A stretch of DNA of 64,000 nucleotides from a virus. The notes beneath the pieces are model-generated. The model was not told the origin of the DNA and made no database searches. It saw only the letters and a program-made list of their open reading frames with translations. This document shows positions 31,042 through 51,052 of this stretch, in pieces; within the stretch, counting starts at the first letter, position 1, and each line of letters opens with the position of its first letter. Both the position numbers and the translations under genes were made by a program. The stretch spans positions 124,001 through 188,000 of the IMG/VR virus record IMGVR_UViG_3300043418_000114. The stretch is one strand, 5' to 3'.

Positions 31042-31238
31042 TGAAAGTCTATCAACTGACCGCAAGACGAGCAGATGGTGGTATCACTGATTGGAACTAC
31101 AATCCAATCTATGCTACACTCGAAGGTGCTGAAAAGCAAAAAGAAATCGAATTCAATGCATACACCAAAGTCAACGGCGTGGTGATGTTTGAATGTCCCT
31201 ATATTTTTGAGATTAGAGAATTTGAGGTAAAAGAATGA
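31041..31238 (+). CDS. unrecognised small protein
   Basis: The 65-residue protein (KVYQLTARRADGGITDWNYN) is beta-rich. ATG at 31041 shares its first base with the previous stop; a GTG one codon earlier is possible. Coupled to the next gene. Confidence 0.55.
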   Translation: MKVYQLTARRADGGITDWNYNPIYATLEGAEKQKEIEFNAYTKVNGVVMFECPYIFEIREFEVKE

Positions 31239-31459
31239 ACAACCGAATCAATGAACTCGCAGTCCAAGCTGGTGGAATCTGGCGTGGTGGCTATGTTGAA
31301 CAACCCAACGGTGATAGTGTCTACACAGACCAGAAGTTTGTTCACGGTGGAGACATGGATGTAGAACAATTCGCCCGACTGTTGGTGAAAGAATGTTGCG
31401 ATGTAGTTGATTACAACAATGCTCGGGCAATCGTTAATCATTTAGGAGTTGAAGAATGA
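31235..31459 (+). CDS. modular MNERIKEL-type small protein
   Basis: The 74-residue protein is one of a family with three constant parts: an N-terminal MNxRIxELAxQA helix, a central xxFAxLLVKEC helix and a C-terminal HFGVEE-like tail (here NHLGVEE). The segments between vary in length and sequence. It ends with GGAGTTGAAGAATGA, which is both its last codons and the ribosome-binding site of the next gene. Function unknown. Confidence 0.65.
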   Translation: MNNRINELAVQAGGIWRGGYVEQPNGDSVYTDQKFVHGGDMDVEQFARLLVKECCDVVDYNNARAIVNHLGVEE

Positions 31460-31659
31460 ACAAATACTTTCACATCGTTTATGTCCACCCCGTAGAGAAC
31501 GGTGAGCCCAACACTTACAAGGTTGTTCTTGAAAAAGAATTTACAACCAAACAGCAGGCAGACAAGTTCATTTTGTTGTTCAACACACCTGATATCAAAT
31601 TATATGTTGAGGCAGTCTATCTAGGCTGTGTCAACGATGAAACCGGAGAACTGGTATGA
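31456..31659 (+). CDS. unrecognised small protein
   Basis: The 67-residue protein (YFHIVYVHPVENGEPNTYKV) is beta-rich and not of the modular family, although it starts in the same GGAG...ATGA junction. It overlaps the next gene by four bases. Confidence 0.55.
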   Translation: MNKYFHIVYVHPVENGEPNTYKVVLEKEFTTKQQADKFILLFNTPDIKLYVEAVYLGCVNDETGELV

Positions 31660-31892
31660 ACGAACGAATTAAACAACTTGCTGAACAGGCTACGACTTAC
31701 ATTGAGCCAACATCAACAAGCGGTGAAGGTTGGATCTTTGACAAAGAAAAGTTCGCCGAGTTGATTGTCAAGGAATGTGCTAAAGTTATCGTGAACGGTG
31801 GTTATTGGTCGGGTGGTCCACTTGGTCCTAAGAGACAATGCACTCCGCCAGAGATTGCTCAAATGATTAAAGAATATTTTGGAGTTGAATGA
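31656..31892 (+). CDS. modular MNERIKEL-type small protein
   Basis: The 78-residue protein has MNERIKQLAEQA, a variable loop, EKFAELIVKECA, a Gly/Pro-rich insert and the tail EYFGVE. Its first 36 bases differ by one base from the genes at 38145 and 38928. Function unknown. Confidence 0.65.
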   Translation: MNERIKQLAEQATTYIEPTSTSGEGWIFDKEKFAELIVKECAKVIVNGGYWSGGPLGPKRQCTPPEIAQMIKEYFGVE

Positions 31893-32098
31893 TGGACGAC
31901 TATAAACATTCAGTAAGTGTAATTCTTGTTGACAACATGAACCGATTACAACGAGGAGAAATCACTAAGCAACAATTACTGGCACTAGTCCACAGTCTAG
32001 AAGCGATTAGCATTGACGAAACGCAGAGCAATTTTTTCAAGTCGTATTATGAACTTTTGGATCAGGTTGAAAAACAACATTTCGGAGTTGAAGAATGA
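31889..32098 (+). CDS. small protein with shared HFGVEE tail
   Basis: The 69-residue protein is helical and lacks the N-terminal and central family motifs, but ends QHFGVEE like the modular family. The tail DNA again supplies GGAG for the next start. Function unknown. Confidence 0.55.
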   Translation: MMDDYKHSVSVILVDNMNRLQRGEITKQQLLALVHSLEAISIDETQSNFFKSYYELLDQVEKQHFGVEE

Positions 32099-32277
32099 CA
32101 CGAGAACAAATGATGGCGTTGTTTGAAAAGTCCTGTGCTAACTGGGGATTTGATTTCACTAAAGATGATACAGGTCCTAATGGAGTAATCTATGCTTCAT
32201 ATGAAACCGGTGTGATGTTTGGCATGTTTGATATAGGCTTTGATACAGCAAAAGAACATTTTGGAGTTAAAGAATGA
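32095..32277 (+). CDS. small protein with shared HFGVKE tail
   Basis: The 60-residue protein (EQMMALFEKSCANWGFDFTK) shares only the C-terminal EHFGVKE with the modular family. ATGA junctions at both ends. Function unknown. Confidence 0.55.
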   Translation: MTREQMMALFEKSCANWGFDFTKDDTGPNGVIYASYETGVMFGMFDIGFDTAKEHFGVKE

Positions 32278-32540
32278 AAACAAATGACGAACTATTTGAT
32301 ATGGTGACAAAACTGGACCATCCTATGGCTCGTAAACTGAAAGAACTACGCATTGAGGCTTTCAAGTTGCCAACCACTAGTGATGCTGAAAAGTTTTTAT
32401 CAGAGTGGAAGAAGAACAACCCCGAAGAAGCAACAGCCATGCGTGAGTTTATCATGAGTATTGAAATTGAATATAAAGAAGGTCGCCGTGAAGTTAAATC
32501 ACAGTTAGGTTACAGTCGCATTGGATTGGGTAATGTATGA
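32274..32540 (+). CDS. unrecognised helical protein
   Basis: The 88-residue protein is charged and helical (DEEATAMREFIMSIEIEYKE-like). It starts in the family-type junction but does not carry family motifs. Function unknown. Confidence 0.55.
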   Translation: MKTNDELFDMVTKLDHPMARKLKELRIEAFKLPTTSDAEKFLSEWKKNNPEEATAMREFIMSIEIEYKEGRREVKSQLGYSRIGLGNV

Positions 32541-32791
32541 ACAAACAACTAATATATGATCTTGCTGTAAAGCATAAGCATATTTGTGGTGAACTACCAT
32601 TGAATGTAGTTGAAGAACTCGCCCTTGTTGGATTGGAACTATTTGCTGAGGTAATTGTTCGGGAATGTATTAAGTCTATTCAATCAGACATGGATCGTGA
32701 GACAATGAACGGAACTATATCTTTAGCAAAACACGCAGGTATGGTATCAGCAAAAACGGTTATCAAAAAACACTTCGGAGTTGAAGAATGA
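32537..32791 (+). CDS. modular-type small protein
   Basis: The 84-residue protein has a diverged N terminus (MNKQLIYDLAVKHKH), a central LFAEVIVRECIKSIQ that corresponds to the family helix, and the tail KKHFGVEE. Function unknown. Confidence 0.55.
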   Translation: MNKQLIYDLAVKHKHICGELPLNVVEELALVGLELFAEVIVRECIKSIQSDMDRETMNGTISLAKHAGMVSAKTVIKKHFGVEE

Positions 32792-32976
32792 CACGGTATT
32801 ATTTGAATCTAAAGTTTAACAACTTAGACAACAGTTTATATACTGATTATCAAGCTGTTATGCAGATTGAAATCATCACTGATGATATCAGTCACGCACA
32901 TTTGCTTGGTCAACGTTGGATGAAGGTCATGGACGCCGATGAATATCAACTGGTAAAAATGTACAAGGTATCGTAA
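32788..32976 (+). CDS. unrecognised small protein
   Basis: The 62-residue protein (RYYLNLKFNNLDNSLYTDYQ) has a ferredoxin-like strand-helix pattern. It follows the family-type junction and overlaps the next ATG by one base. Confidence 0.5.
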   Translation: MTRYYLNLKFNNLDNSLYTDYQAVMQIEIITDDISHAHLLGQRWMKVMDADEYQLVKMYKVS

Positions 32977-33173
32977 TGGAACTGACGATTTCTATAGCCT
33001 TGATTGGTAAGAGTATGCTGTTCGCACTCTTATCGATGCTCTTGGTAATGTTCATTCTGTTTCCAATCAATGATCGCCCAACTAGTCGAGGGCAAGTTAT
33101 TGTTTGGATCATTAGTGAAGTGCTTCTACTCTCCGTGATCTTTGATTTTATTTCTTTTCGAATAGTTGCTTGA
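32976..33173 (+). CDS. two-helix membrane protein
   Basis: The 65-residue protein has two hydrophobic segments (LFALLSMLLVMFILF and VLLLSVIFDFI) around a short polar loop. Its stop lies in the -35 box of the next promoter. Confidence 0.55.
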   Translation: MELTISIALIGKSMLFALLSMLLVMFILFPINDRPTSRGQVIVWIISEVLLLSVIFDFISFRIVA

Positions 33174-33198
33174 CAATAAATGGTTTTGGGTATATAAT
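33170..33198 (+). promoter_or_regulatory. sigma-70 promoter, cassette type
   Basis: TTGACA, 17 bases with TTTTGG, TATAAT, then TCATCCATTGTC and GGAG before the start at 33230. Confidence 0.85.
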
Positions 33199-33229
33199 TC
33201 ATCCATTGTCAAACAAAACGGAGATTATC

Positions 33230-33472
33230 ATGAACAAAGCCAAAGTCACTAAAATTCTTGTTAACTGCAAAGATTTCAACGGTTACAAAAATTGCATCTT
33301 CATGATGAAGTCTGATGATTTCCGTCTGACTAACAGCTACATGGGCAATGTCATTGAGTTTGGCTACACAAAGATTGCTGATGGCAAATTCAACACAAAA
33401 GAACGTAAGTTTGTAACTGATGCTGGTGATACTTACAAAGTCTACCGCGATTGGTCAGCAGAAAAAATTTGA
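33230..33472 (+). CDS. unrecognised small protein
   Basis: The 80-residue protein (KVTKILVNCKDFNGYKNCIF) is beta-rich. The start at 33230 has CGGAG upstream; the longer frame lies in the promoter. It is a single-gene transcription unit followed at once by another cassette promoter. Confidence 0.6.
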   Translation: MNKAKVTKILVNCKDFNGYKNCIFMMKSDDFRLTNSYMGNVIEFGYTKIADGKFNTKERKFVTDAGDTYKVYRDWSAEKI

Positions 33473-33479
33473 AAAATGG

Positions 33480-33508
33480 TTGACAGTAAATAATTTTGGA
33501 CATATAAT
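33480..33508 (+). promoter_or_regulatory. sigma-70 promoter, cassette type
   Basis: TTGACA, 17 bases with TTTTGG, TATAAT, then CAGTCATGTTTAATATACGGAG and the start at 33539. Confidence 0.85.
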
Positions 33509-33538
33509 ACAGTCATGTTTAATATACGGAGAATCAGA

Positions 33539-33742
33539 ATGTCACTCGAAGATGTAGCTCTTGGAATTGTCAACCCATCATTGCAAAATGGCGAAATGGC
33601 TGAATTCGATTATGGCACTTTGTTTTTGCACTGCACTGAAAAGACTAGTCGCAAAGTGTTCTCCGATCTGTTCATTGAATTCAACGGTAAAGTAAAAATC
33701 TCTACTGTTGGTTACGAATACGCAATTGACTTCACCGCTTAA
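33539..33742 (+). CDS. unrecognised small protein
   Basis: The 67-residue protein (SLEDVALGIVNPSLQNGEMA) is acidic and beta-rich in its second half. The ATG at 33539 follows CGGAG; an ATG at 33515 lies within the leader of the cassette. Confidence 0.6.
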   Translation: MSLEDVALGIVNPSLQNGEMAEFDYGTLFLHCTEKTSRKVFSDLFIEFNGKVKISTVGYEYAIDFTA

Positions 33743-33751
33743 GGAATAATC

Positions 33752-34528
33752 ATGCCAGGTTTTATTGACGTTTCTCATATGTCTAATGAAGATGTTCGTC
33801 GCATGGGTCATGCTGATGACTATGATGAAGAATACGTGCCTAGTAAACCATCGTATCCTACGTACACTCGTAGCACATACACTAACAAGCCTCGTGCTAC
33901 TCGCCAAGTTGTCAGCCACAAAGCTGATGATGTATGGTCTGCCTCATGTGCGGCATTCCGTATCAACGGTTCATATGTCAAAGTCGCTGTGGTTGATGAA
34001 CGTGGTCTTAAGACCAACCGTGCAATCATGGATGAACTCTTGCTGGATCCTACTAAGATCACCCAAGAAGATCGTGAACAAGGTGAAGCTGTTCGTCGTT
34101 ATTTTAAAAGCCAGACCTTTAAGATTCTTGAAGGCAGAGACTTGAGCCAGTTTATGCGTAGTGCAATGGAGATTGCAGAGAAGGATAACATCGCTTCGGC
34201 GTATGATATCGCTGTGATCACCAGCTTGCCTGCCACTTATGTTAATGCGGCTAAGCGTGATGGCGTCGATAGTCGTATCAAGTGGGCGCGTGGTGGCTAC
34301 ATTGGTGATGTAGGTCACAAAGTCGAAACTAAGATTGAAATCGTTAAGCGCCTGTGGTCTGAAAAGTATTCCACTTGGTATGTAACTGGTATCAATGAAC
34401 AAGATCAAGTTGTTTTCTTTTCTTTTAAGAAACAAGTTGAAATTGGTGATACAATGACTATCGAAGGCAAAGTCAAATCACAACGTGAAACTTCCACTCA
34501 ACTCTCTCATGTAAAGGTGAAATCATGA
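33752..34528 (+). CDS. unrecognised 258-residue protein
   Basis: An N-terminal Tyr/Pro-rich stretch (about 25-55) precedes a domain with VAVVDERGLKTNRAIMDELL and AIEDNIAS-type helices. The last 70 residues (TKIEIVKRLWSEKYSTWYVT, then VEIGDTMTIEGKVKSQRET) look like an OB-type beta fold, suggesting nucleic acid binding. No family was recognised. It is coupled to a small membrane protein. Confidence 0.6.
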   Translation: MPGFIDVSHMSNEDVRRMGHADDYDEEYVPSKPSYPTYTRSTYTNKPRATRQVVSHKADDVWSASCAAFRINGSYVKVAVVDERGLKTNRAIMDELLLDPTKITQEDREQGEAVRRYFKSQTFKILEGRDLSQFMRSAMEIAEKDNIASAYDIAVITSLPATYVNAAKRDGVDSRIKWARGGYIGDVGHKVETKIEIVKRLWSEKYSTWYVTGINEQDQVVFFSFKKQVEIGDTMTIEGKVKSQRETSTQLSHVKVKS

Positions 34529-34653
34529 AAAACTTTATTCTTGGTACTATTTTTGGCATCGTCATTGCTACTGTCGGATTCGGTGGCATCGCAAAAATGC
34601 TTGACAACGGCATCGAGAAAACAAAAACAATCGCAGTGGAGAGCGCAAAATGA
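34525..34653 (+). CDS. 42-residue conserved-looking membrane peptide
   Basis: The frame from an ATGA overlap encodes MKNFILGTIFGIVIATVGFG followed by a short charged tail. This is a small one-segment protein type common in T4-like phages of aquatic bacteria; role unknown. Confidence 0.6.
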   Translation: MKNFILGTIFGIVIATVGFGGIAKMLDNGIEKTKTIAVESAK

Positions 34654-34865
34654 TCTTCACTAAAGAACAAATTGCACAAGCACTTGATGCACTGCCAAAA
34701 GAAAATCGCCCAGTGATGACTGCGATCATTGGTCAACTTCAGGCTAAACTGTTCGAACTCAAGCACGAAGTAAGCACCGATCCAATTAACAAGCCATTTG
34801 AATTGAATCCAAAGTTTGTTGCCAAGTGTGACGAAATCGGTCGTAGCCGTCGTCAATTTCAATAA
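34650..34865 (+). CDS. unrecognised helical protein
   Basis: The 71-residue protein (FTKEQIAQALDALPKENRPV) is helical with a basic end. ATGA overlap upstream; AAGGAGTTGA follows its stop as the ribosome-binding site of the next gene. Confidence 0.6.
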   Translation: MIFTKEQIAQALDALPKENRPVMTAIIGQLQAKLFELKHEVSTDPINKPFELNPKFVAKCDEIGRSRRQFQ

Positions 34866-34873
34866 GGAGTTGA

Positions 34874-35116
34874 ATGATGAACGAACACACAAAACTACTT
34901 ATTATGAAGGCAGGTGGAATCATTTGTTCCACAGAAGCCACTGGTCACATTGACAAAATTGATTACTTACACTTTGATGCGGAAAAGTTCGCCGAGTTGC
35001 TTGTTAAGGAATGTGCGACCATAGACTTCACTGAAAAATCTAAAGGTAACTTCAATGCCCTGCAAACTAATTGGATTAGTAATATCATCATTGAACACTT
35101 TGAGGACGAAGAATGA
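34874..35116 (+). CDS. modular MNERIKEL-type small protein
   Basis: The 80-residue protein has MNEHTKLLIMKAGG, a variable insert, EKFAELLVKECA and the tail EHFEDEE. The segment before its start is the same GGAGTTGAATGATGAAC string that elsewhere encodes the FGVE tail, but here it is non-coding. Confidence 0.65.
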   Translation: MMNEHTKLLIMKAGGIICSTEATGHIDKIDYLHFDAEKFAELLVKECATIDFTEKSKGNFNALQTNWISNIIIEHFEDEE

Positions 35117-35475
35117 GAACACTTAATAAAACAGGCTTGCTAATTTGTTTAGCATTGGTGTCTGCATCGGCCTTGCTTACTGGTTGCAATGAAAATCGTG
35201 ACCGAACAGTGGGCAACGTTGAATACGAAATCAAAGCTGATGGATGTGTTGTCAAAGCTATTGACAACCCCAAAGGTCCTAACTTCTTCATTGCTAAGTG
35301 CCCAGCGGCTAGCGAAACAACTACTTACCAATACCAACAGGGTAAGACTACACGACCACTGGCAACAGTAGTCACAAGTGACGACCTCCGCAATCAATTA
35401 GCTGAGGTTGAAGCAAAAGAAAAAGCCCTGTCTAAATTGACAGAAACAGAAAAGAAACTTCTAGGAGTACAATGA
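35113..35475 (+). CDS. small lipoprotein
   Basis: The 120-residue protein has a signal with lipobox LLTGC, a periplasmic domain with two Cys (GCVVKAI and AKCPAAS) and a C-terminal charged helix. The pattern is found in T4-like phage envelope proteins. Function unknown. Confidence 0.65.
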   Translation: MRTLNKTGLLICLALVSASALLTGCNENRDRTVGNVEYEIKADGCVVKAIDNPKGPNFFIAKCPAASETTTYQYQQGKTTRPLATVVTSDDLRNQLAEVEAKEKALSKLTETEKKLLGVQ

Positions 35476-35627
35476 TGGAAATCAAATGGTTTATGATTGC
35501 AATGTCAGTGATGTTCGGTGGTGGCATGGCTGCCGCTGGTATTGGTGAATATCAAAAAGGTCAGTGTAAGATTGCTTACGTGCAGTCGAACAAGACTGCC
35601 GAAGAAATCAATCGAATCTGTAAGTGA
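35472..35627 (+). CDS. 51-residue membrane protein
   Basis: The frame from ATG at 35472 (ATGA overlap) gives one hydrophobic segment (WFMIAMSVMFGGGMAAAGIG) followed by a small domain with two Cys (QCKIAYV and INRICK). Possibly an anchored periplasmic partner of the lipoprotein. Confidence 0.55.
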   Translation: MMEIKWFMIAMSVMFGGGMAAAGIGEYQKGQCKIAYVQSNKTAEEINRICK

Positions 35628-35635
35628 AGTGAATC

Positions 35636-36079
35636 ATGGGTCTAGATATGTACGCATACGTTGGTCGTGCTGGACAACGTGAGGAATACTGGGACCAGTA
35701 TGGTGAAGATATTTCCGAGGATAAAAAAGTAAGTAAGCCTCAAGAACTTGCCTACTGGCGTAAACATCCCAATCTTCATGGTTGGATGGAACGACTTTGG
35801 TTGAGAAAGAATGGGTACGCACTTTCAGAAGATCAGCAGTTCATCGAAGGCAAGCAAGCGCCAGACTTCAACGGGGTTGAACTTGAATTGACCTTTGACG
35901 ATATTCTTGCACTTGAGCGTGATATCAATAATGGTAAGATGGCAAAGTTGGGTACTACTGGTTTCTTCTTTGGTAATCCTAGCGATGACCACTACAAAGA
36001 ATATGACCTTAAGTTTTGCATTGATGCTAAGGCAGAATTGTTCCTTGGTCGTAAAGTTTTCTACAATTCAAGTTGGTAG
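35636..36079 (+). CDS. MGLDMY-type conserved phage protein
   Basis: The 147-residue protein begins MGLDMYAYVGRAGQ and has LAYWRKHPNLHGWMERLW and TTGFFFGNPSDD, the pattern of a widespread phage and plasmid protein family of unknown function. GTGA/ATCATG junction upstream. Intact. Confidence 0.65.
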   Translation: MGLDMYAYVGRAGQREEYWDQYGEDISEDKKVSKPQELAYWRKHPNLHGWMERLWLRKNGYALSEDQQFIEGKQAPDFNGVELELTFDDILALERDINNGKMAKLGTTGFFFGNPSDDHYKEYDLKFCIDAKAELFLGRKVFYNSSW

Positions 36080-36106
36080 CAACTAAATACGCTACACAGG
36101 TGCGGC

Positions 36107-36313
36107 ATGCTTAAAAATATAATAATCACAATTCTCGGTCTTTTCATTGTAGTCTTTTGGCTAAAAGAAGAACCAGAGGACATGGTGAGTGATGATCCAA
36201 ATGATGTTACAATTGAATACAAATGTAACGAACTGGATACGTATGAAAGTGTGCCTGTCGAAGTCATCGAAGAATGCAAGAGTCGTGGCTTTGCTGTGCG
36301 CGATACTATTTGA
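36107..36313 (+). CDS. membrane-anchored conserved-looking phage protein
   Basis: The 68-residue protein has an N-terminal anchor (NIIITILGLFIVVFWLK) and a small acidic domain IEYKCNELDTYESVPVEVIE with two Cys, a type I associate with T4-like phages. Its stop lies in the ligase promoter. Confidence 0.6.
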   Translation: MLKNIIITILGLFIVVFWLKEEPEDMVSDDPNDVTIEYKCNELDTYESVPVEVIEECKSRGFAVRDTI

Positions 36314-36338
36314 CATACAACCATCAATCTGATATAAT
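36310..36338 (+). promoter_or_regulatory. sigma-70 promoter for DNA ligase
   Basis: TTGACA, 17 bases, TATAAT, then a short leader with TTAGGAG before the start at 36363. It lacks the TTTGG of the cassette family. Confidence 0.8.
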
Positions 36339-36362
36339 CTATCAATTGATTAGGAGAAACTA

Positions 36363-37712
36363 ATGTCCGCATCGTGGATTCAAAAACTGAATGAGTCTGA
36401 TAGTCGTCTTCACAAAGAGGACGTACTGCAACAAGCACTCGAAGCCGCTACGCTCGGTAGCACAAATTCAATTACTTTCTTGAGCTATCTCAAGTCATGT
36501 TATAACCCATTCTTGACTTTTGGTGTCAAGCAGATTCCTGACACTGTTGGCATCACTGGTGCTGATAATCCCTGGAGTGAATTCAATCAACTCATGATCG
36601 ATCTTGGTCAACGCAAGTTGACTGGACACGCCGCACGTGATGCGATTCTAGAACTGTCAGAGCGTTTTGATTCGGAAGAATGGAACACATTCCTTGCTCC
36701 GGTACTGCGCCGCGACATGCGTTGTGGTATCAGCGAGAAGACTATCAACAAAATCTGTAAAAAGACTGACTACGAAATCCCCGTGTTTGGTTGCCAACTA
36801 GCAACTAACTCGGAAGGTCGTCCTGAAATGAAGGGTATCAAACGACTTGAGCCTAAGTTGGATGGTGTTCGTGCCCTGTTCATGGTCATTCCAAGTGACG
36901 ACGGTGAAGTGACTACAATCTGTTTCAGTCGCAATGGCAAACAGTTTGATAACTTTACTCACATTGAAGATCAACTTCGTACTAACTTCATTAACATTGT
37001 TAATGCATGTAACGGCACTGATCAAGGTCGTGGACTAGTTCATGGCTTTGTTATGGATGGCGAAGTGATCGGCAATACATTCCAAGAATTGATGCGCCAA
37101 GCTCGTCGCAAGAGTGACGTACAAGCTGATGATAGCGTATTCAATATCTTTGATATCGTACCACTAGCTGACTTCCGTCGTGGCTACTGGAATGCTCAAC
37201 TTGAAAAGCGTATCAAGCTCCTCGAAGCTATGCGTACGGTGGTCGACGACATGCCTAACGTTGAACTGTTGCCTCATTTGATGGTCGACTTGAGCACCGC
37301 AGAAGGCCAAGATCAATTGCATCGTTATGCTGTAGATCAAGTCAATGCTGGATTTGAAGGCATCATGATTAAAGAAATGCAATCCCCATATCAGTGCAAG
37401 CGTAGTACTGATTGGATGAAATGGAAGCCTACTATCACTGTTGACCTTGAAGTCATTGGCGTTGAAGAAGGTACTGGTCGTAACGTTGGTCGTCTTGGTG
37501 CACTTGTATGTGCAGGCATTGATGATGGCAAAGAGATTTTCGTAAACGTTGGTAGTGGTCTCAGTGATGCAGACCGAGATGAATTCTGGGCCAATCGTAA
37601 TGTAGTTATTGGTCGCACTGTTGAAATTTTATGTGATGTGATTACACAAAACCAAGATGGTACTTACAGCCTGCGTTTCCCTCGCTTTGTTCGCTTCCGT
37701 GATGACAAGTGA
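36363..37712 (+). CDS. 30: ATP-dependent DNA ligase (T4 gp30-like)
   Basis: The 449-residue protein carries the adenylation motif EPKLDGVR with the reactive K165, then MDGEVIG (motif III), GFEGIMIKE (motif IV) and STDWMKWKP (motif V), and ends in an OB-fold domain. It is somewhat shorter than T4 gp30 (487). It seals nicks left by the polymerase and 5' exonuclease encoded here. It overlaps the next gene by four bases. Confidence 0.93.
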   Translation: MSASWIQKLNESDSRLHKEDVLQQALEAATLGSTNSITFLSYLKSCYNPFLTFGVKQIPDTVGITGADNPWSEFNQLMIDLGQRKLTGHAARDAILELSERFDSEEWNTFLAPVLRRDMRCGISEKTINKICKKTDYEIPVFGCQLATNSEGRPEMKGIKRLEPKLDGVRALFMVIPSDDGEVTTICFSRNGKQFDNFTHIEDQLRTNFINIVNACNGTDQGRGLVHGFVMDGEVIGNTFQELMRQARRKSDVQADDSVFNIFDIVPLADFRRGYWNAQLEKRIKLLEAMRTVVDDMPNVELLPHLMVDLSTAEGQDQLHRYAVDQVNAGFEGIMIKEMQSPYQCKRSTDWMKWKPTITVDLEVIGVEEGTGRNVGRLGALVCAGIDDGKEIFVNVGSGLSDADRDEFWANRNVVIGRTVEILCDVITQNQDGTYSLRFPRFVRFRDDK

Positions 37713-38026
37713 TGTTATACGTTGAATATAAATGGGCCAAACGCCCAGGACGCATGGGAATATTCCACAAGAGCAAACGAGTTGGCGTTAGGTCTAAGTT
37801 TGTTCGTGGAAGTCAACCAGGTCTAGCGCGTTGGAAGATTGCCAATCTAACAGACGAATACAAACCGCATGAATTCTTTGCTATTCTGAGTTTTGATAAT
37901 CTCAGTAATTGGGTTGAGAATAGTCCGCAGTGTAATCCAAGACTACAAGCGGCCTACAATAAACATAGATTCATACGTGGCAATATTGCACATCGTTATA
38001 TTAGACGACTGAGTGGTGAAGAATGA
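37709..38026 (+). CDS. unrecognised basic protein
   Basis: The 105-residue protein is rich in Arg, Lys and aromatic residues (KRPGRMGIFHKSKRVGVRSK) and may bind nucleic acid. It is coupled to the ligase (ATGATG junction). Confidence 0.55.
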   Translation: MMLYVEYKWAKRPGRMGIFHKSKRVGVRSKFVRGSQPGLARWKIANLTDEYKPHEFFAILSFDNLSNWVENSPQCNPRLQAAYNKHRFIRGNIAHRYIRRLSGEE

Positions 38027-38148
38027 CATTAACTAAGATTGAATTAAACAAGGACAATCGCATGTTGCGTATTGGCTTTGGTAAGAATGACGGCAACTGG
38101 TTTGCCCGTGTTGACTTGTGGTGTGTGGGATTTAGGATCATACAATGA
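38023..38148 (+). CDS. 41-residue protein
   Basis: The frame from an ATGA overlap encodes MTLTKIELNKDNRMLRIGFG and a Trp/Phe-rich end. It overlaps the next start by four bases. Short but well embedded. Confidence 0.45.
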   Translation: MTLTKIELNKDNRMLRIGFGKNDGNWFARVDLWCVGFRIIQ

Positions 38149-38180
38149 ACGAACGAATTAAAGAACTTGCTGAACAGGCT
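38145..38180 (+). repeat. 36-base direct repeat, copy 1 of 2 (near copy at 31656)
   Basis: This stretch encodes MNERIKELAEQA and is identical to 38928-38963; 31656-31691 differs by one base. Identity at silent positions points to recent duplication or gene conversion. Confidence 0.85.
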
Positions 38181-38381
38181 TATGAACAACAGCCGCTGAT
38201 GATTGCTAATCCCGAAACATTTGAAATTGAACATAAGATTGGCAACGGTGGAGTTCCTATATATCATAAAGTGTTTAACCAAGAAAAGTTCGCCGAGTTA
38301 ATTGTTCGGGAATGTATTGCTCAATGTAATGATGGTGATAGTCGGTGGTTTATCGCACAACATTTTGGAATTGAAGAATGA
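38145..38381 (+). CDS. modular MNERIKEL-type small protein
   Basis: The 78-residue protein has MNERIKELAEQA, a long variable insert, EKFAELIVRECI and the tail QHFGIEE. Its first 36 bases are identical to those of the gene at 38928. Confidence 0.65.
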   Translation: MNERIKELAEQAYEQQPLMIANPETFEIEHKIGNGGVPIYHKVFNQEKFAELIVRECIAQCNDGDSRWFIAQHFGIEE

Positions 38382-38725
38382 ACGAACGAATTAAAGAACT
38401 AGTAAGACTAGTCCAATCCCTTAAAGATAGATTTTTTGTCAAGCGACCTGTAGATATACTACTAGGTGAGTATTGGGCACAATTAGAAGAATTGTGGAAA
38501 AGTGAACTTATTAATCTGCCCAGGTGTGCCCCGGGTAAACTGTATTACGCCAGTGATATCATAAAATTTATAGAACAAGATGTGGCACCAAAATATGGAT
38601 TTAAATTAATCCGTAAACCAAATGAAACCCACAATGGGTTGTTGAAGGATATACCCTGTTACTGGATTAGATTCAATGACCCCAAGAAGGTAACAAGATT
38701 TACAACAGAGTTCGGAGTTGAATGA
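38378..38725 (+). CDS. chimeric protein with family ends and unrelated middle
   Basis: The 115-residue protein shares MNERIKEL at the start (first 23 bases identical to its neighbours) and EFGVE at the end with the modular family, but the 100 residues between are unrelated and lack the central helix motif. This suggests a foreign segment placed between family ends. Confidence 0.6.
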   Translation: MNERIKELVRLVQSLKDRFFVKRPVDILLGEYWAQLEELWKSELINLPRCAPGKLYYASDIIKFIEQDVAPKYGFKLIRKPNETHNGLLKDIPCYWIRFNDPKKVTRFTTEFGVE

Positions 38726-38931
38726 TGAACGAGCAAACAAGAATTAAGTATTCGTATGTTTCTATTTTACCAGAAGAAATGTCACCATATTCATCTGCGG
38801 TTAGAATAAGTCACAAGGATTCTACTGTTAAAGAATTGTTAGATCAGTTGTGTGTGAATAGTCAGATCAAAGATGAAAATGGTAAAATTGTGAGCAGTAT
38901 TTTCGATATCAATTACGAGGTTATTGAATGA
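38722..38931 (+). CDS. unrecognised small protein
   Basis: The 69-residue protein (RIKYSYVSILPEEMSPYSSA) is not of the modular family except for its MMNEQT start. It overlaps both neighbours by four bases. Confidence 0.55.
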   Translation: MMNEQTRIKYSYVSILPEEMSPYSSAVRISHKDSTVKELLDQLCVNSQIKDENGKIVSSIFDINYEVIE

Positions 38932-38963
38932 ACGAACGAATTAAAGAACTTGCTGAACAGGCT
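38928..38963 (+). repeat. 36-base direct repeat, copy 2 of 2
   Basis: Identical to 38145-38180; see that entry. Confidence 0.85.
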
Positions 38964-39185
38964 GGCTGTGGCTATTTGTATGATTATTCAGCAGACGGAC
39001 ATGCAATGGTTTGTAATGTAAATGACATTGAAAAGTTTGCCGAGTTGCTTGTCAAGGAATGTGCTATGCTTGTCGAGGGATTTATACTTGATCAAGAGGT
39101 AGCTCTTGACGAATATGTTGAATATGAAGCAAGTAGTGTACTTCGAGAACACTTTGAAATAAACAGTGAAAGTAAATCTACATGA
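38928..39185 (+). CDS. modular MNERIKEL-type small protein
   Basis: The 85-residue protein has MNERIKELAEQAG, a variable insert, EKFAELLVKECA and a tail REHFEINSESKST that diverges after HFE. Function unknown. Confidence 0.65.
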   Translation: MNERIKELAEQAGCGYLYDYSADGHAMVCNVNDIEKFAELLVKECAMLVEGFILDQEVALDEYVEYEASSVLREHFEINSESKST

Positions 39186-39379
39186 AAGAATCAGTAAGCC
39201 GTGAAGAACTCTCTGAAATTATCAACCGAGAGTTATTGGCATTTGTCGGGCATCCTAATACCGAAAAGACTAGACAAGCCATCTTTGAAATGATATTATC
39301 TTTAGTTAATAGGTTTCCTGAGAAAATTGATTTGATTCAAGAAATCATACAAGAAGGAATGAAGAATGAATCCACATGA
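39182..39379 (+). CDS. unrecognised helical protein
   Basis: The 65-residue protein (VSREELSEIINRELLAFVGH) is wholly helical. It overlaps the next gene by 14 bases. Confidence 0.55.
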   Translation: MKESVSREELSEIINRELLAFVGHPNTEKTRQAIFEMILSLVNRFPEKIDLIQEIIQEGMKNEST

Positions 39380-39572
39380 TTTAGAGGGCAAGAAATATAT
39401 ATTTGAAGATGGTGCTGAAATATTCATTAAGCACGTAAAAGACGTTGATGCTGAACGCGGTACACTTCAGGTAACATATCTTGTCACAACTAGTCCTAGA
39501 AGCATACCTAGACAACTCATACTACCATGGCAAGAGTTTCAGGAGCACTATGGACACTTGTTTAAAGAATAA
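39366..39572 (+). CDS. unrecognised small beta protein
   Basis: The 68-residue protein (LEGKKYIFEDGAEIFIKHVK) looks like a small beta barrel. GAAGGAATG upstream supplies the ribosome-binding site inside the previous gene. Confidence 0.55.
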   Translation: MNPHDLEGKKYIFEDGAEIFIKHVKDVDAERGTLQVTYLVTTSPRSIPRQLILPWQEFQEHYGHLFKE

Positions 39573-39579
39573 ATATTAG

Positions 39580-41289
39580 ATGTATAAAAAAATCATAAAT
39601 TTACCAAATCTAACTCTATTGGTCGCACTGTGTTTGAGTACAGTAGCGGCCTATTATAGTATTATTGGTTTAACTGCAATTTTTGCAGGGGCAGTTATTC
39701 CAGTTATTATCATGGGTAGTATGCTCGAAGTGGCAAAGATTACTACCACTGTATGGCTACGCAAATACTGGAATCGTGCTGGCTGGGTCATCAAGATGTA
39801 CCTTGTTCCTGCTGTTATTGCATTGGCTCTACTCACTTCGATGGGTATCTTTGGATTCTTGTCTAAAGCTCACTTAGATCAAAACATTGGATCTGGTGAT
39901 GTACAAGCAAAAGTAGCATTGCTTGATGAAAAGATCAACATTCAACGTGACAACATTAAAGCTAGCAAAGCGGCACTAGCACAAATGGATACCCAAGTCA
40001 ATGATATCATGACTAAGGGTGATAGCGAACGCAGTGTTGAACGTTCCGTTATGATTCGCAAGCAACAAGCCAAAGAACGTGCTAGCTTGATGAAAGATAT
40101 TGAAGTTGCCAATAAAGAGATTCAAGCTCTTAATGCAGAACGTGCGCCTATTGCAAGTGAACTCCGCAAAGTAGAAGCCGAAGTTGGCCCTATCAAGTAT
40201 ATTGCCGCCTTAATTTATGGTGACAATGCAGATCAAAACATGCTAGAGTCTGCCGTTCGTTGGGTTATCATTCTGTTAGTTGTTGTATTCGACCCACTTG
40301 CCATTGCACTTGTATTAGCTGGCAATCAAAGTAAAGAATGGAACGATGACGAACCTGAATACGAACCTGATAATGGTCCTATTAATGAAGAAGCACTGGC
40401 ATTATTACGTGCCAAAGTAGAACAAGATTTACCAACTGGTGAATTAATCACAAAGTCAGAATTGTTTCCTGATCCAGAAGAAGGTAACAAACTTATTGAT
40501 GAACTCGAAAAAGAAGTACCAGAAGTTGTTCTTCCAAATGAACCAATGCAGTTTGTTGATTTTGGTGAGCATCCAAAAGACTACGATGAAAATCAAGTTG
40601 AAGAACCTGTGGTTGAAGAAGAAAAATCTATTCTTGAACAACATCCATACTTGTTGAATGGGTTTGATCACTTCTCTAATACTACGCCAATTGTTCATAA
40701 GCCAGAGCCAAAGAAAGTTGACTTCACTCAAGGCAGATATGAAGTTAGCGATCCAGTCATGAGCTATAATATTGTCTTGCCAGAGCCAGCGATTGAACCA
40801 GCTCCAATGCCAGAGCCAACAAGTGAAGTGTTCGATAGACCAGGTGACTATATTGTTCCAGAAGACACTTCGGAACTTATTACACCAGAAGTCAAACAAC
40901 AATTTGTCGAAGAAGAAGATGGCTACGTGATCTATGACGGATTGCACATGAGTAAAGATGCCTTAAAAGGAATGCATCCAGAGTTGTTCACATTGAAAGC
41001 TGATGAAGGTCGACCAATTAAAACTAACTTTGGTATTGGTTTCCCATCACAAGCTGATAAAGGTGATATCTTTGTTCGTGTTGATATGCTACCAAATCGT
41101 GTGTACAAATTTGATGGACACGGCAAGTGGATAGAAGTCAACAAAGAAATCACTGACACATATCTACACAATCAAAAATATCTACAACACCTTGTCAACA
41201 TGATTGAACGTGGTCAATATGATGTAGAATTGCTTTCTGAAAATGAGAAGGCTGAGATTGAAGAATATCTACGCAAGCAAAATGGTTGA
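39580..41289 (+). CDS. large membrane protein with coiled coil and acidic tail
   Basis: The 569-residue protein has three N-terminal membrane segments (about 10-35, 40-55, 72-95), a cytoplasmic or periplasmic coiled coil (about 105-205, LLDEKINIQRDNIKASKAAL), a fourth membrane segment (WVIILLVVVFDPLAIALVLA, about 225-245) and a long acidic Pro/Glu-rich C-terminal region. I associate this layout with a conserved unknown membrane protein of T4-like aquatic phages. It could organise the membrane during infection. Confidence 0.65.
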   Translation: MYKKIINLPNLTLLVALCLSTVAAYYSIIGLTAIFAGAVIPVIIMGSMLEVAKITTTVWLRKYWNRAGWVIKMYLVPAVIALALLTSMGIFGFLSKAHLDQNIGSGDVQAKVALLDEKINIQRDNIKASKAALAQMDTQVNDIMTKGDSERSVERSVMIRKQQAKERASLMKDIEVANKEIQALNAERAPIASELRKVEAEVGPIKYIAALIYGDNADQNMLESAVRWVIILLVVVFDPLAIALVLAGNQSKEWNDDEPEYEPDNGPINEEALALLRAKVEQDLPTGELITKSELFPDPEEGNKLIDELEKEVPEVVLPNEPMQFVDFGEHPKDYDENQVEEPVVEEEKSILEQHPYLLNGFDHFSNTTPIVHKPEPKKVDFTQGRYEVSDPVMSYNIVLPEPAIEPAPMPEPTSEVFDRPGDYIVPEDTSELITPEVKQQFVEEEDGYVIYDGLHMSKDALKGMHPELFTLKADEGRPIKTNFGIGFPSQADKGDIFVRVDMLPNRVYKFDGHGKWIEVNKEITDTYLHNQKYLQHLVNMIERGQYDVELLSENEKAEIEEYLRKQNG

Positions 41290-42990: not shown

Positions 42991-44193
42991 ATGAGTACTG
43001 AAAACAAACTGAACCATTGCTCCTTTTGTGGCAATCATAAAGATGTAGTTAAAAAATTGATCGTTGGCGATGACGTTGCTATCTGTAGCGACTGTATTGA
43101 CCTGTGTACTCAATTAATTGTTGATGACGGCACGGTAGAGGACAATTCTATCAAGACCAATGATCAATATGATCCTGCCTTAATTAAGACTTACTTGGAT
43201 CAACACGTTATTGGCCAAGATAGTGCTAAAATGGTACTATCGGTGGCTATCGCAAATCACTATAAGCGAATCACTCATCCACCTAAAGATTTAGATATCT
43301 CGAAGGGCAACGTTCTTATCGTAGGTCCCACTGGCAGTGGTAAAACATTGCTTGCGAAAACCGTAGCGAAATACCTTAACGTTCCATTTGTAGTGGCTGA
43401 TGCAACTAGCTTAACCGAAGCTGGCTATGTAGGTGATGACGTTGAATCAATGATCAGTATGCTAGTTGCTAATGCAAACGGCGATACTAAACTAGCAGAG
43501 CGCGGAATCGTGTTTGTTGATGAAATCGACAAGATTGCACGTAAGGGTGAGTCTACCAGCTTAACCAGGGACGTTTCAGGCGAAGGTGTACAACAAGCAC
43601 TATTGAAACTAGTCGAAGGTACTGTGTGTCGTGTTCCTGCACAGGGTGGTCGTAAGCACCCAGGTGGAGATATGCTAGAAGTCAACACCAAGAACATCCT
43701 GTTCATTGCTGGTGGCGCATTCGTTGGCTTGAAAGACGTTATCGAGCGTAGAACTAACGGCGGTGGCATTGGATTCGGAGCAACTGTAAAGAAATCCCAA
43801 CAAGAAAGCAATTTAGGTGAAGTCACTCCTGATGACTTGACTAAGTTCGGCATGATTCCTGAGTTTATCGGTCGATTCACTACTACTGTCGCTATTGAGA
43901 CACTAACAAAAGACGAACTTAAGCGTGTTCTTCTTGAGGTCAAAAACAACTATATCGCCCAGTATCAGTATCTGTTCTCCATTGACGGCATTGAGTTGGT
44001 ATTGGAGGATTCAGCACTGGATCAGATCGTAGATAATTGCGTCAAACTCAAGACTGGCGCACGTGGCTTGCACACTGAGATTGAACGTGCCCTAATGCCA
44101 CACATGTTTAACACTGGTAAATATCGTCAAAACAAGATTAAAAAGATAAATATTAATCAGGAGTTAATTTTAAACCCAAAACCAATTGTATGA
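42991..44193 (+). CDS. clpX: ClpX ATPase, protease-unfolding subunit
   Basis: The 400-residue protein is complete: zinc finger C10, C13, C32, C35; Walker A GPTGSGKT (112-119); pore loop GYVG (145-148); Walker B IVFVDEID (173-180); RKH loop (221-223); IGF loop (260-262), which docks on ClpP; sensor 2 GAR (356-358). It should recognise, unfold and thread substrates into ClpP. Presence of IGF suggests it works with ClpP, phage or host. It is slightly shorter than E. coli ClpX (424). The bS21 gene overlaps its stop by four bases. Confidence 0.97.
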   Translation: MSTENKLNHCSFCGNHKDVVKKLIVGDDVAICSDCIDLCTQLIVDDGTVEDNSIKTNDQYDPALIKTYLDQHVIGQDSAKMVLSVAIANHYKRITHPPKDLDISKGNVLIVGPTGSGKTLLAKTVAKYLNVPFVVADATSLTEAGYVGDDVESMISMLVANANGDTKLAERGIVFVDEIDKIARKGESTSLTRDVSGEGVQQALLKLVEGTVCRVPAQGGRKHPGGDMLEVNTKNILFIAGGAFVGLKDVIERRTNGGGIGFGATVKKSQQESNLGEVTPDDLTKFGMIPEFIGRFTTTVAIETLTKDELKRVLLEVKNNYIAQYQYLFSIDGIELVLEDSALDQIVDNCVKLKTGARGLHTEIERALMPHMFNTGKYRQNKIKKININQELILNPKPIV

Positions 44194-44408
44194 GAAAAGG
44201 CAGACGAGTAATTGTTAATGATGGCAACGTTGAAAAGGCGTTGCGTAAATTTAAAAAGAAGATCGCGGATCAGGACCTGCTACAGGAAGTTCGTGATCGT
44301 GGACAGTTTGTTAAACCTACAATTAAGCGTAAGTTAGCTAAGAGCCAGGCTAAACGTAGATGGCAAAAGTACTTGCGTGATCAGAGTTTGCCTAAGAAAC
44401 TCTATTAA
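44190..44408 (+). CDS. rpsU: ribosomal protein bS21
   Basis: The 72-residue protein matches S21: NVEKALRKFKKKIADQDLLQ, then RDRGQFVKPTIKRK and a basic LAKSQAKRRWQKYLRD tail. bS21 binds the 30S subunit near the anti-Shine-Dalgarno end and acts in initiation. Phage-borne bS21 is known from large aquatic phages and is thought to bias the ribosome towards phage mRNA. It is coupled to clpX by ATGA. Confidence 0.9.
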   Translation: MRKGRRVIVNDGNVEKALRKFKKKIADQDLLQEVRDRGQFVKPTIKRKLAKSQAKRRWQKYLRDQSLPKKLY

Positions 44409-44453
44409 ACCAAAATATTAGAATTTTTTGCGTATTTTTAGTTAAATAAATAC

Positions 44454-44484
44454 GACAGTAGATGCCGATGGTCGGGTCTACTAC
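44454..44484 (+). promoter_or_regulatory. hairpin in the hsp20 leader
   Basis: AGTAGA pairs with TCTACT and, inside, CCGA with TCGG, separated by small bulges. It lies about 35 bases before hsp20 and after an AT-rich stretch containing TTAAATAAATA. It could be a leader structure; coordinates are approximate to a base or two. Confidence 0.4.
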
Positions 44485-44517
44485 ATGTCATAACTTGCTT
44501 ATTAAAGGAGAAAACAA

Positions 44518-44955
44518 ATGACAAAAACTTTATCCCTTCGTTCCCTCGACATTCCGTCAATCCACAAATTTGGTATCGGCTTCGATAACATGTTTGATGA
44601 ATTAATGCGAATGAATGCTCAACAATCCCTTAACTATCCTCCATACAACATTCTCAAGAATACCGATGATTCATTCGATATTCAAGTGGCTGTTTCTGGC
44701 TTTAGTGAAGGTGAGATTGAGGTCAATCTTGACAATCGAGTATTGACTATCAAGGGTCAGAAGGCGGAAGATGTAGTTGCTGAATATCTGCATAAAGGTA
44801 TCAGTACACGTGATTTCGTGCGTGAGTTCACTCTAGCCGAACACGTTGAGGTAATCAATGCCTCACAAAAAGATGGTATTTTGACTATTCAACTAGAACG
44901 CATCGTTCCAGAAGAAAAGAAACCGAAAAATATCCAGATATCTTATTCTAAATAA
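44518..44955 (+). CDS. Hsp20 small heat-shock protein
   Basis: The 145-residue protein has the alpha-crystallin domain: [49 protein letters not shown] and [10 protein letters not shown], and ends with [11 protein letters not shown]. Phage Hsp20 is standard in T4-like cyanophages and is thought to hold unfolded proteins during assembly. AAAGGAG precedes the start. It neighbours clpX, bS21 and clpS in a protein-quality cluster. Confidence 0.93.
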
Positions 44956-45623
44956 GAATTGCATTTTTCAAAATGCCATCGTCGCATTCCTGGGGTAGCT
45001 CCAGATTTGCCACAATGCGGACAGGTAATCATGATTGAATTAGGATTAACATTCTTTTGAAAATTATGATTACCTTCTCGAACTAGCTCACGCGCCCGTA
45101 CTGATTCTTGGTTATATGTTCGACCACTTGATCTGATTCCAATACTAATATTTTTTCGATGTTGATCCGTCTTGAATCCTTTATAATTATCTTTGTTGGA
45201 TTTAGGGCCTTGTAATTTTCGGATAAACTCTGGATTTTTAACTTTCGCTTGATTTGCTAATTTAATTTTATTTGCATGATCTACTGATTTTGGACCTCTG
45301 AGTTTTTCTCTCGTTTCCAATGAATGCTTATGGCCAGTAGTTCCCTCTCCACCATCGGTTTGATTTCTTAGTATACCTGTCATGTTGTCCTTGCGACCAT
45401 ACCATCTTATCATGCGTCTTTCCAACGCAAAAGCTCCAATTTCAGATAGTGATTGTTCCATGATGATAATTCTACATTCATCTACTGGCAAATTTATGCA
45501 ATGATTTTTGTGCCATGCCCTACCATTAAATCCCTTTCCGATATAGTACGGCGTACCATCGTCGCGCAAATATGCGTAAACATAGAACCCAATCGGTGGA
45601 TTCTTTTTTGAATAAATAGTCAT
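44943..45623 (-). CDS. GIY-YIG homing endonuclease
   Basis: The 226-residue protein starts with [20 protein letters not shown], the GIY-YIG core in its F-Y-V/Y-Y-I-G form, followed by an Arg (RAWHK) and Glu (ALERRM). Its centre has NUMOD-like repeats ([17 protein letters not shown]), and the C terminus is a zinc finger with [12 protein letters not shown] and FEKC. It lies opposite to all its neighbours, overlaps the hsp20 end by 13 bases and separates hsp20 from clpS, as expected for a free-standing homing endonuclease inserted between conserved genes. Confidence 0.9.
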
Positions 45624-45703
45624 GCTGATTGCTCCTTGAAAGCGTTAGAGTAGTCGGAGAGGTTAGAGACTCGCGGACTACACTTTTATTTATACCAAAC
45701 CAA

Positions 45704-45731
45704 TTGATATTACTTAATTTAGTGATATAAT
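45704..45731 (+). promoter_or_regulatory. sigma-70 promoter for clpS
   Basis: TTGATA, 16 bases, TATAAT. The expected start point, around 45738, coincides with the first base of the hairpin described next. Confidence 0.65.
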
Positions 45732-45737
45732 TAACGA

Positions 45738-45764
45738 GAGTAGTCGAAAGGCTACTCACTTTTT
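45738..45764 (+). promoter_or_regulatory. 5'-terminal GAAA-tetraloop hairpin and T run in the clpS leader
   Basis: GAGTAGTC-GAAA-GGCTACTC forms an 8-bp stem with one G-T pair and a stable tetraloop, followed by ACTTTTT. It would be the first structure in the clpS transcript. It could cap the mRNA against decay or act as an early terminator. Confidence 0.6.
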
Positions 45765-45783
45765 AAATTTAACCGTAAAGATT

Positions 45784-46092
45784 ATGCCTACCAAAACTGA
45801 TACAAAAATTAAAATCAAACCCAACGTTGCTCTACAAGAACCACCGTTGTTTAAGATCATTTATATCAACGATGACGTAACGAGCATGGAGTTTGTTGTG
45901 TCTAGTTTGATTGACTACTTCAATTACACCGAAGATACAGCCGAGAATATCACCATGGATATTCACAATCAAGGTAGTGCAGTTGTCGCTATTTTACCTT
46001 ACGAGATTGCCGAACAAAAAGGCATCGAGGTAACTCTTGACGCACGTAGTCAAGGATATCCACTTCAAGTCAAAGTGGAAGCTGAGGCTTAA
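45784..46092 (+). CDS. clpS: ClpS adaptor of the N-end rule
   Basis: The 102-residue protein keeps the ClpS fold and binding pocket: FKIIYINDDVTSMEFVV (N29, D30, D31, T33, M35) and H61 in MDIHNQGSA. In bacteria ClpS brings proteins with N-terminal Leu, Phe, Trp or Tyr to ClpA-ClpP. A 20-residue flexible N-terminal tail, needed for delivery, is present. No clpA is seen in the window, so it may redirect host ClpAP or work with the phage ClpX. It converges on the next gene, sharing TTAA. Confidence 0.92.
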   Translation: MPTKTDTKIKIKPNVALQEPPLFKIIYINDDVTSMEFVVSSLIDYFNYTEDTAENITMDIHNQGSAVVAILPYEIAEQKGIEVTLDARSQGYPLQVKVEAEA

Positions 46093-47110: not shown

Positions 47111-47183
47111 TTTTATCTCCTAAACATATATTTACTATTGGACATTTACTACTAATTTTTTGTCTAAAAGTAAACCAAAAGAT

Positions 47184-47213
47184 TTGATATGTGATAGTTG
47201 ATTTTTATATACT
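47184..47213 (+). promoter_or_regulatory. sigma-70 promoter candidate for clpP
   Basis: TTGATA, 18 bases, TATACT, followed by a 25-base leader with AAGGAG before clpP. The divergent gap (47111-47243) holds nothing else obvious. Confidence 0.45.
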
Positions 47214-47243
47214 ACATATCTCAATTAATTATTAAGGAGTATT

Positions 47244-50650: not shown

Positions 50651-50871
50651 AATATATTCCATTATTTGTTATTGTAACATTTTGTGGTATTGCCGGTCTT
50701 ATTGGATCGACTATCGTTATGACGTTCAGCAAGATCGAAACAAGATATAACTGTGAGTTAGCAGAAATTAGTCCTGACTTTCCAATCAAGGCAAAGCAGG
50801 AATGCAGAGAATTAAGGATAAAAAATGAAAAAGGAACTATTCAAGGAGATAGCACTACAAGCGGGCGGTAG
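50647..50871 (+). CDS. membrane-anchored small protein
   Basis: The 74-residue protein has an N-terminal anchor (IPLFVIVTFCGIAGLIGSTI) and a short Cys-containing domain RYNCELAEISPDFP. Its end overlaps the next gene by 47 bases. Confidence 0.55.
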   Translation: MKYIPLFVIVTFCGIAGLIGSTIVMTFSKIETRYNCELAEISPDFPIKAKQECRELRIKNEKGTIQGDSTTSGR

Positions 50872-51052
50872 TCATTATCCAGGTGTTGGTGGTGAAACGT
50901 TAGAGCGTTTCGCCGATTTGCTTTTGCAGGAAGTGATCAAGGCAGTAGAATCTACCCCAAGACATTGTGCATACACCACCTATGATTTGGGTGTAGTTGA
51001 ATGCACTATCGAGAAAACAATCAACACAATCAAAGAACGATTCGAGGTATAA
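50825..51052 (+). CDS. diverged modular MNERIKEL-type protein
   Basis: The 75-residue protein (KKELFKEIALQAGGSHYPGV) keeps the A-x-Q-A-G start helix, a central ERFADLLLQEVIKA and an end KERFEV, matching the family layout about 12 kb away from the main cluster. AAGGA precedes its start inside the previous gene. Confidence 0.55.
   Translation: MKKELFKEIALQAGGSHYPGVGGETLERFADLLLQEVIKAVESTPRHCAYTTYDLGVVECTIEKTINTIKERFEV

Follow-up and report, generated by a model that had tools for sequence, protein, structure and literature searches.

A family of small phage proteins that appears to exchange two cassettes at conserved DNA blocks, one of which doubles as a ribosome-binding site

In HsdS proteins, recombination within conserved regions at the centre and on the flanks creates new pairs of the target recognition domains TRD1 and TRD2, and direct repeats of 19–53 bp serve as seams (PMC3077401). 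Protein fragments have also been shuffled recently between phages, and more mosaicism was predicted for accessory proteins whose function is not known (Smug et al. 2023; PMC10684548). Relaxed phage recombinases exchange fragments that are bordered by short, partly identical traces of homologous recombination (De Paepe et al. 2014; PMC3945230). In cluster K mycobacteriophages, many starts of non-structural genes have just 5′ of them a Start-Associated Sequence (SAS), a short repeated motif with a Shine-Dalgarno core, the consensus GGGATAGGAGCCC and extended inverted repeats at about half of the sites (PMC3203893). Here we describe a family of small proteins encoded in a 64,000-base stretch of DNA (the window), which comprises positions 124,001–188,000 of a 364,247-base phage record. 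The family very likely evolves through the exchange of two independent cassettes, as indicated by the re-pairing of cassettes among genes, the ends of shared DNA tracts, swaps between near-identical flanks, and an empty site in a syntenic locus.

The proteins of the family are 60–100 residues long and are composed of block B1 (MNERIKELAEQA), variable spacer V1, block B2 (EKFAELIVREC), variable spacer V2, and block B3 (HFGVEE), in this order. In the DNA, the blocks measure approximately 36 nt (B1), 33 nt (B2), and 20 nt (B3), and B3 runs into the start of the next gene. An earlier note on this DNA had proposed that the genes at 31235, 31656, 34874, 38145, and 38928, together with diverged copies at 32537 and 50825, share such blocks, and all seven are open reading frames (ORFs) containing them. 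It had also pointed to 36 identical bases in two copies, which are those at 38145 and 38928 (ATGAACGAACGAATTAAAGAACTTGCTGAACAGGCT). At E ≤ 0.01, a profile of the family matches the phage record 15 times and each of 19 further large phage records 2–18 times, and exact copies of the 29-base junction CAYTTYGGAGTTGAAGAATGAACGAACGA are present in at least 120 viral contigs. The recurrence of the blocks is far above chance. More copies are located beyond the window in the same phage, near C1:44.3–44.8 kb and 206–216 kb.

The nearest working analogue of this architecture is the shuffling of TRD1 and TRD2 in HsdS, which likewise has two variable domains flanked and separated by conserved DNA and re-paired via the central region. 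No homology to HsdS, Methylase_S, or TRD domains was found in a Pfam search of the window members or among the hits of 100 family members, so the family appears to work like HsdS but is not one. Unlike HsdS, the proteins are short, phage-borne, and present in many copies per genome, and they match no Pfam family: none was above the cut-off for the window members, and the scan of 100 members against Pfam and PHROGs gave isolated matches at E of about 0.001–0.01, none of them to a family that recurred in a second member. Furthermore, HsdS domains were reported to move between positions 1 and 2, whereas switching between the V1 and V2 positions was not seen here, the comparison of V1 with V2 spacers giving one marginal 12-residue match (E = 0.001).

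Family members were collected by two scans, one with the exact junction pattern and an independent one with a codon-degenerate pattern of the FAELIV-EC block; prevalence figures from both are lower bounds. Pooled, the scans provided 498 family ORFs, 460 of them distinct, from 216 loci. The degenerate-pattern set was used for measures of B1 and B3 and the junction set for B2 in random pairs, so that the selecting pattern cannot create the signal. The proteins were cut into B1, V1, B2, V2, and B3, and the spacers were clustered by BLAST. Homologous V1 spacers occur in 231 pairs of genes and homologous V2 spacers in 190, and both are homologous in only six pairs; about 0.4 such pairs are expected under free shuffling and about 199 under complete linkage. 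At least two different partners were found for 76 of the 77 multi-member V1 clusters and for 82 of the 84 V2 clusters. The window genes are part of this pattern. The V1 of gene 31235 is 84–87% identical in protein sequence to the V1 of loci L023, L069, L130, and L234, and the V2 is common only with L130 (one of the six doubly matching pairs) and differs in L023 and L069. Similarly, the V2 of gene 31656 is 93% identical to that of L028:2784, where V1 differs; the V1 of gene 38145 is 82% identical to that of L066:8866, next to another V2; and the V2 of gene 38928 is 81% identical to that of L021, where V1 differs.

The DNA tracts shared by such pairs, in which the median identity of the cassettes is 81–83%, mostly end at the blocks. 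Tracts with a shared V1 start in B1 in 190 of 223 cases and end in B2 in 182, and tracts with a shared V2 start in B2 in 132 of 177 cases and end in B3 or the stop codon in 151. The earlier note had suggested cassette shuffling through the conserved ends. The shuffling is borne out by hundreds of re-paired sequence pairs and by swaps within species, and tracts do end in B1 and B3. The ends are not the sole seams: the central block (FAELIVREC) is a main crossover seam beside them, which makes three seams in all.

Several pairs of relatives bear witness to recent swaps or insertions. L124 and L132 have identical aligned DNA upstream and nearly identical DNA downstream, and they differ only in V1, which has been replaced from the B1 seam to the B2 seam. 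The flanks of L020 and L137 are 96–97% identical on both sides of arrays that differ in content, with the last V2 kept next to a new V1. Two V1s are re-paired with other V2s between L027 and L153, and re-paired or inserted genes distinguish L072 from L077 and L216 from L217. L225 and L227 are about 95.6% identical elsewhere; one of them contains the spacer combinations GLKYH-MRMCEV and GSTHK-LDIVN, and the other GLKYH-LDIVN, GSTHK-RQAKE, and EFSEK-MRMCEV. The window itself is syntenic with L095 over positions 34277–40321. L095 lacks the 34874 gene, the homology running up to the GGAGTTGAA seam to leave an empty site, and has other spacers between the equivalents of window positions 37690 and 39667.

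Conserved blocks with variable spacers are also the usual look of a diverging family, and the genes could be old fixed paralogs in which loops diverge fast by mutation with no exchange between copies. The earlier note had named the same spacers at the same positions in related phages as the sign of such paralogs, and the comparison with L095 instead favours shuffling. Mutation alone does not account for identical or near-identical spacers beside unrelated partners in hundreds of pairs or for shared tracts that stop at the blocks. The re-pairing statistics and the empty site in L095 led us to reject fixed paralogs as hardly credible. Joining of unrelated phages at the repeated 30–60-bp blocks during metagenome assembly might imitate exchange, since the data are all metagenomic contigs and the blocks are repeats. 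However, the shared cassettes are diverged, with a synonymous divergence (pS) of about 0.5 in the spacers and a ratio of non-synonymous to synonymous divergence (dN/dS) of 0.14, which indicates that the combinations are old and selected. The reading frames are intact. In L124/L132, L020/L137, and window/L095, both flanks match the same relative, so that an assembler would have had to make two matching joins in every case. Because of the diverged cassettes and the doubly matching flanks, an assembly artefact is judged very unlikely.

The blocks that delimit the exchanged cassettes are conserved at the DNA level. Codons that are scarcer in long ORFs prevail in them: CGA for R4 (85% versus 11%), GCC and GAG for the alanine and glutamate of FAE (77% versus 20% and 86% versus 28%), CGG for the arginine of VREC (60% versus 4%), and GGA for the glycine of HFG (95% versus 22%). 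These figures come from loci that were not picked by a nucleotide-exact pattern. The block codons are the same in GC-rich and AT-rich contigs, of which the GC-rich sample is small. Between random members of different loci, identity is 79% in B2 and 65% in B1, in comparison to a chance-like 29–32% at matched spacer positions.

Such blocks might be kept only because the protein needs them, with new combinations arising by illegitimate joining and selection for in-frame products. B1 and B2 are helical in the structure model described below, and B3 is in frame 0 in 347 genes versus 10, both of which suit this explanation. It is nevertheless rather unlikely, since contigs of differing GC content retain rare synonymous codons at high frequency and the tracts end within blocks, not at random in-frame points. 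The conservation of block DNA beyond codon usage could instead reflect a dedicated site-specific recombinase or homing endonuclease acting on B1, B2, and B3, as in integrons or shufflons. We consider this improbable: no recombinase recurs among 110 array-neighbour proteins searched with Pfam (a search of neighbours only, not exhaustive for whole genomes), and the GIY-YIG-type domains among them (T5orf172, MUG113) are single matches. The seams are imperfect, with 65–80% identity between random members, and resemble traces of homology more than a recognition site; no inverted repeat was noticed in the blocks by eye.

The re-pairing, the tract ends, the swaps between near-identical flanks, and the empty site indicate that B1, B2, and B3 act as short homology seams. 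Crossover at B1 and B2 replaces V1, crossover at B2 and B3 replaces V2, and crossover between successive B3/B1 junctions inserts or removes a whole gene. A gene dropped into an array in this way could be translated at once, because B3 carries the ribosome-binding site (RBS) of the gene that follows it. The exchange most likely occurs by ordinary homologous recombination of phages during co-infection, because a RecA/UvsX-type gene is present in the window phage (near C1:26692-27450, L248:1417-2490), no dedicated recombinase recurs near the arrays, and the RecT and ERF families of annealing proteins were not found in this phage. The RecA/UvsX-type gene adjoins a 333-residue ORF (L248:135-1136) that by eye resembles a single-strand binding protein of the T4 gp32 type. 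The short seams of partial identity match the recombination traces described for relaxed phage recombinases. The unit exchanged among temperate phages in that study was a gene or segment, whereas here it is half a gene, about 60–100 nt between repeated seams.

Several observations weigh against the exchange of cassettes through these seams as proposed. The synonymous divergence of B2 in pairs that share a spacer (pS 0.47–0.49) is barely under that of the spacers (0.50–0.52), and thus the conserved codons do not prove ongoing homogenisation. Exact runs common to random members have medians of only 8–13 nt in single blocks. The minimal segments for efficient pairing are 31–34 bp for RecA and 23–27 bp for Red-beta (quoted in PMC3945230), and exchange would therefore in most cases depend on a relaxed recombinase or a more similar partner. 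The RecT and ERF families, as noted, were not found in the window phage. No protein target is known for the family. Every member comes from assembled metagenomes; the family is present in no isolate, and the exchange has never been observed in the laboratory.

The B3 seam has a second feature at the DNA level. HFGVEE and its stop codon are encoded by CATTTcGGAGTTGAAgAATGA, in which a Shine-Dalgarno core (GGAG, 11 nt before the ATG) and a spacer lead to the start of the next gene, whose ATG overlaps the stop. The motif GGAGTTGA was found at 178 sites, compared with 26 expected; an ATG follows 7–15 nt downstream at 150 of them and exactly 11 nt downstream at 120. About 30 of the sites preceding an ATG do not encode GVE, as they lie between genes or in a different frame; one of these is at window position 34866, where the DNA comes after a TAA. 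The position of the B3 DNA and its conservation independent of frame show it as a Shine-Dalgarno sequence and spacer for the next gene, whose translation it presumably starts. This bears on genes 31889 and 32095, which the earlier note had taken for family genes reduced to the tail. They do end in HFGVEE and HFGVKE without B1 and B2, but their tail DNA is the RBS of the next gene, a common translation signal and not a protein module. As the tail is conserved largely in this role, neither gene is a trimmed family member. The tail also seems to have value for the protein, or at least to inherit its frame with V2, because 347 family genes end in the HFGVE frame, whereas 10 have the tail DNA in another frame and mostly end in FRS. 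For annotators, HFGVEE-like tails should not be taken as protein homology alone, as part of them is a translation signal.

This arrangement is similar to SAS in that a repeated motif with a Shine-Dalgarno core stands a few bases 5′ of gene starts. The consensus here (CATTTcGGAGTTGAAgAATGA) differs from that of SAS, and inverted repeats were not searched for systematically. The motif of the family (GGAGTTGAAGAATGA) in most cases encodes the C-terminus of the gene before it and extends into the conserved N-terminus of the gene after it, and SAS were not described as delimiting swapped protein cassettes.

Both spacers are under strong purifying selection, with a pooled dN/dS of 0.14 for V1 and 0.14 for V2. 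AlphaFold2 models of proteins 38145 and 31656, which have unrelated spacers, both contain a helix, a beta hairpin, and two further helices (mean pLDDT 91 and 88). The predicted scaffold is constant, with B1 forming helix 1, V1 the hairpin, B2 helix 2, and V2 with B3 the last helix. A Foldseek search of the PDB gave nothing significant (best E-value 1.1), and the leading matches in BFVD were uncharacterised proteins of uncultured Caudovirales (E 8e-4 to 0.035). Judging by the multiplicity of the genes, the purifying selection, and the combinatorial variation, the family most likely provides a set of small early proteins, each with two variable faces that would bind differing targets in the host or in rival phages; this is the weakest step of our interpretation. 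We tentatively extend it to a shared library, in which the V1 hairpin and V2 helix would be binding faces on one scaffold, freely reassorted across unrelated phages via RBS seams, selected as a system for exchanging units, and renewed at each co-infection.

Alternatively, the proteins might not be host effectors, as the earlier note had suggested they could be, but serve phage–phage competition or an internal phage process, their diversity reflecting neutral gene flux in an accessory region. The genes around the arrays are a mixture of accessory and metabolic ones (DNA ligase, RNA ligase, ribonucleotide reductase, ThyX, NAMPT), which agrees with this possibility, as does the lack of a known target. 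The strong purifying selection on both spacers and the many copies per genome speak against neutrality; they do not tell host targets from those in rival phages. We regard a role other than that of host effectors as a real though not the leading possibility.

The family is unnamed and widespread in uncultured phages and is nearly missing from the cultured phage collection that was searched. No clear member was detected in 50,697 annotated phage records by megablast of the region, tblastn of a member, of the block consensus, and of 22 concatenated cassettes, or blastn of the junction; weak matches only were obtained, for example to Manatee Spring metagenomic phages. The 364,247-base record itself has no match in this collection. 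The degenerate B2 pattern has just nine matches in 84,980 bacterial and archaeal genomes, nearly all in small contigs of metagenome-assembled genomes. No mention of the block motifs was found in the literature searched. The recent shuffling of fragments between phages is shared with the mosaic phage proteins of Smug et al. (PMC10684548), from which the family differs in its two cassettes with fixed DNA seams and nearly free re-pairing, and in having no PHROG and no representative that was found in the cultured phage records. Compared with the shuffling of fragments reported for known phage proteins, the recombination of protein halves nearly without linkage looks far more extreme. Through this family, it becomes possible to test how small proteins diversify in phages, whether RBS junctions double as recombination seams, and what the cassettes target.

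The genes of the window region are short, tightly packed, and overlapping, and most of them are on the plus strand. The family genes, seams, and related genes of the window are listed in Table 1.

Table 1. Family genes, genes with family-like ends, and seams in the window
Feature	Position	Strand	Details
Family gene	31235..31459	+	B1 31235-31270; V1 31271-31363; B2 31364-31396 (EQFARLLVKEC); V2 ~31397-31438; B3 tail and stop 31439-31459
RBS seam GGAGTTGAAGAATGA	31445..31459	+	Stop of 31235 gene overlaps start of 31456 gene
Family gene	31656..31892	+	V1 31692-31745; B2 31746-31778 (EKFAELIVKEC); V2 31779-31871; tail EYFGVE and stop ~31872-31892
Non-family gene	31889..32098	+	Ends in HFGVEE; without B1 and B2; tail DNA is RBS for 32095 gene
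Non-family gene	32095..32277	+	Ends in HFGVKE; without B1 and B2; tail DNA is RBS for 32274 gene
Diverged family gene	32537..32791	+	B2 32636-32668 (ELFAEVIVREC); tail HFGVEE
Seam GGAGTTGAATG	34866..34876	+	Beyond any tail, right after TAA of 34650 gene; plain RBS GGAGTTGA (34866-34873) for 34877 gene
Family gene	34877..35116	+	B2 34982-35014; ORF start possibly 34874 (MM); B1 from 34877 if second ATG used
Family gene	38145..38381	+	B1 38145-38180; V1 38181-38282; B2 38283-38315; V2 38316-38360; B3 HFGIEE and stop 38361-38381
RBS seam GGAATTGAAGAATGA	38367..38381	+	38145/38378 junction
Non-family gene	38378..38725	+	B1 start MNERIKEL; B3 tail/RBS (FGVE ATGATG); foreign middle between; without B2
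Family gene	38928..39185	+	B2 39030-39062; V2 MLVEGFILDQEVALDEYVEYEASSVL; tail diverged (REHFEINSESKST)
Most diverged family gene	50825..51052	+	MKKELFKEIALQAGG...RFADLLLQEV...KERFEV

Other genes look as if they had been captured between B1 and B3. Gene 38378 keeps only the ends around a foreign middle, as the earlier note had recognised, and this middle of 100 residues has no relative among the fetched loci. In L099 (minus strand, around position 211), a rhodanese-like protein, named by eye, begins with MNERI as the family does and ends in a GVEE tail, and it may be a second case. The C-terminus EVKSQLGYSRIGLGNV of the non-family gene at window positions 32274-32540 recurs in L043:2829, joined to the B1-V1 half of a family gene, which suggests that exchange also reaches beyond the family. 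In L072 (minus strand, around position 4444), B1 is joined to what is left of the C-terminus of another gene, Band 7/SPFH-like by eye, of which the relative L077 has a longer version; the fusion appears to be a deletion with one end at a seam.

A repeated sigma70-like promoter, approximately TTGACAATAAATGGTTTTGGGTATATAATTCATTCATTG, precedes several runs of small genes, including family arrays, and is located in the window at 28783, 30714, 33170, 33480, 48921, and 49744. These sites are probably early promoters. Pfam matches at positions 42991-47834 of the window identify closely spaced genes for ClpX (42991-44193), an Hsp20 chaperone (44518-44955), the ClpS adaptor (45784-46092), and ClpP (47244-47834), and the phage apparently encodes a complete Clp protease of its own together with an adaptor.

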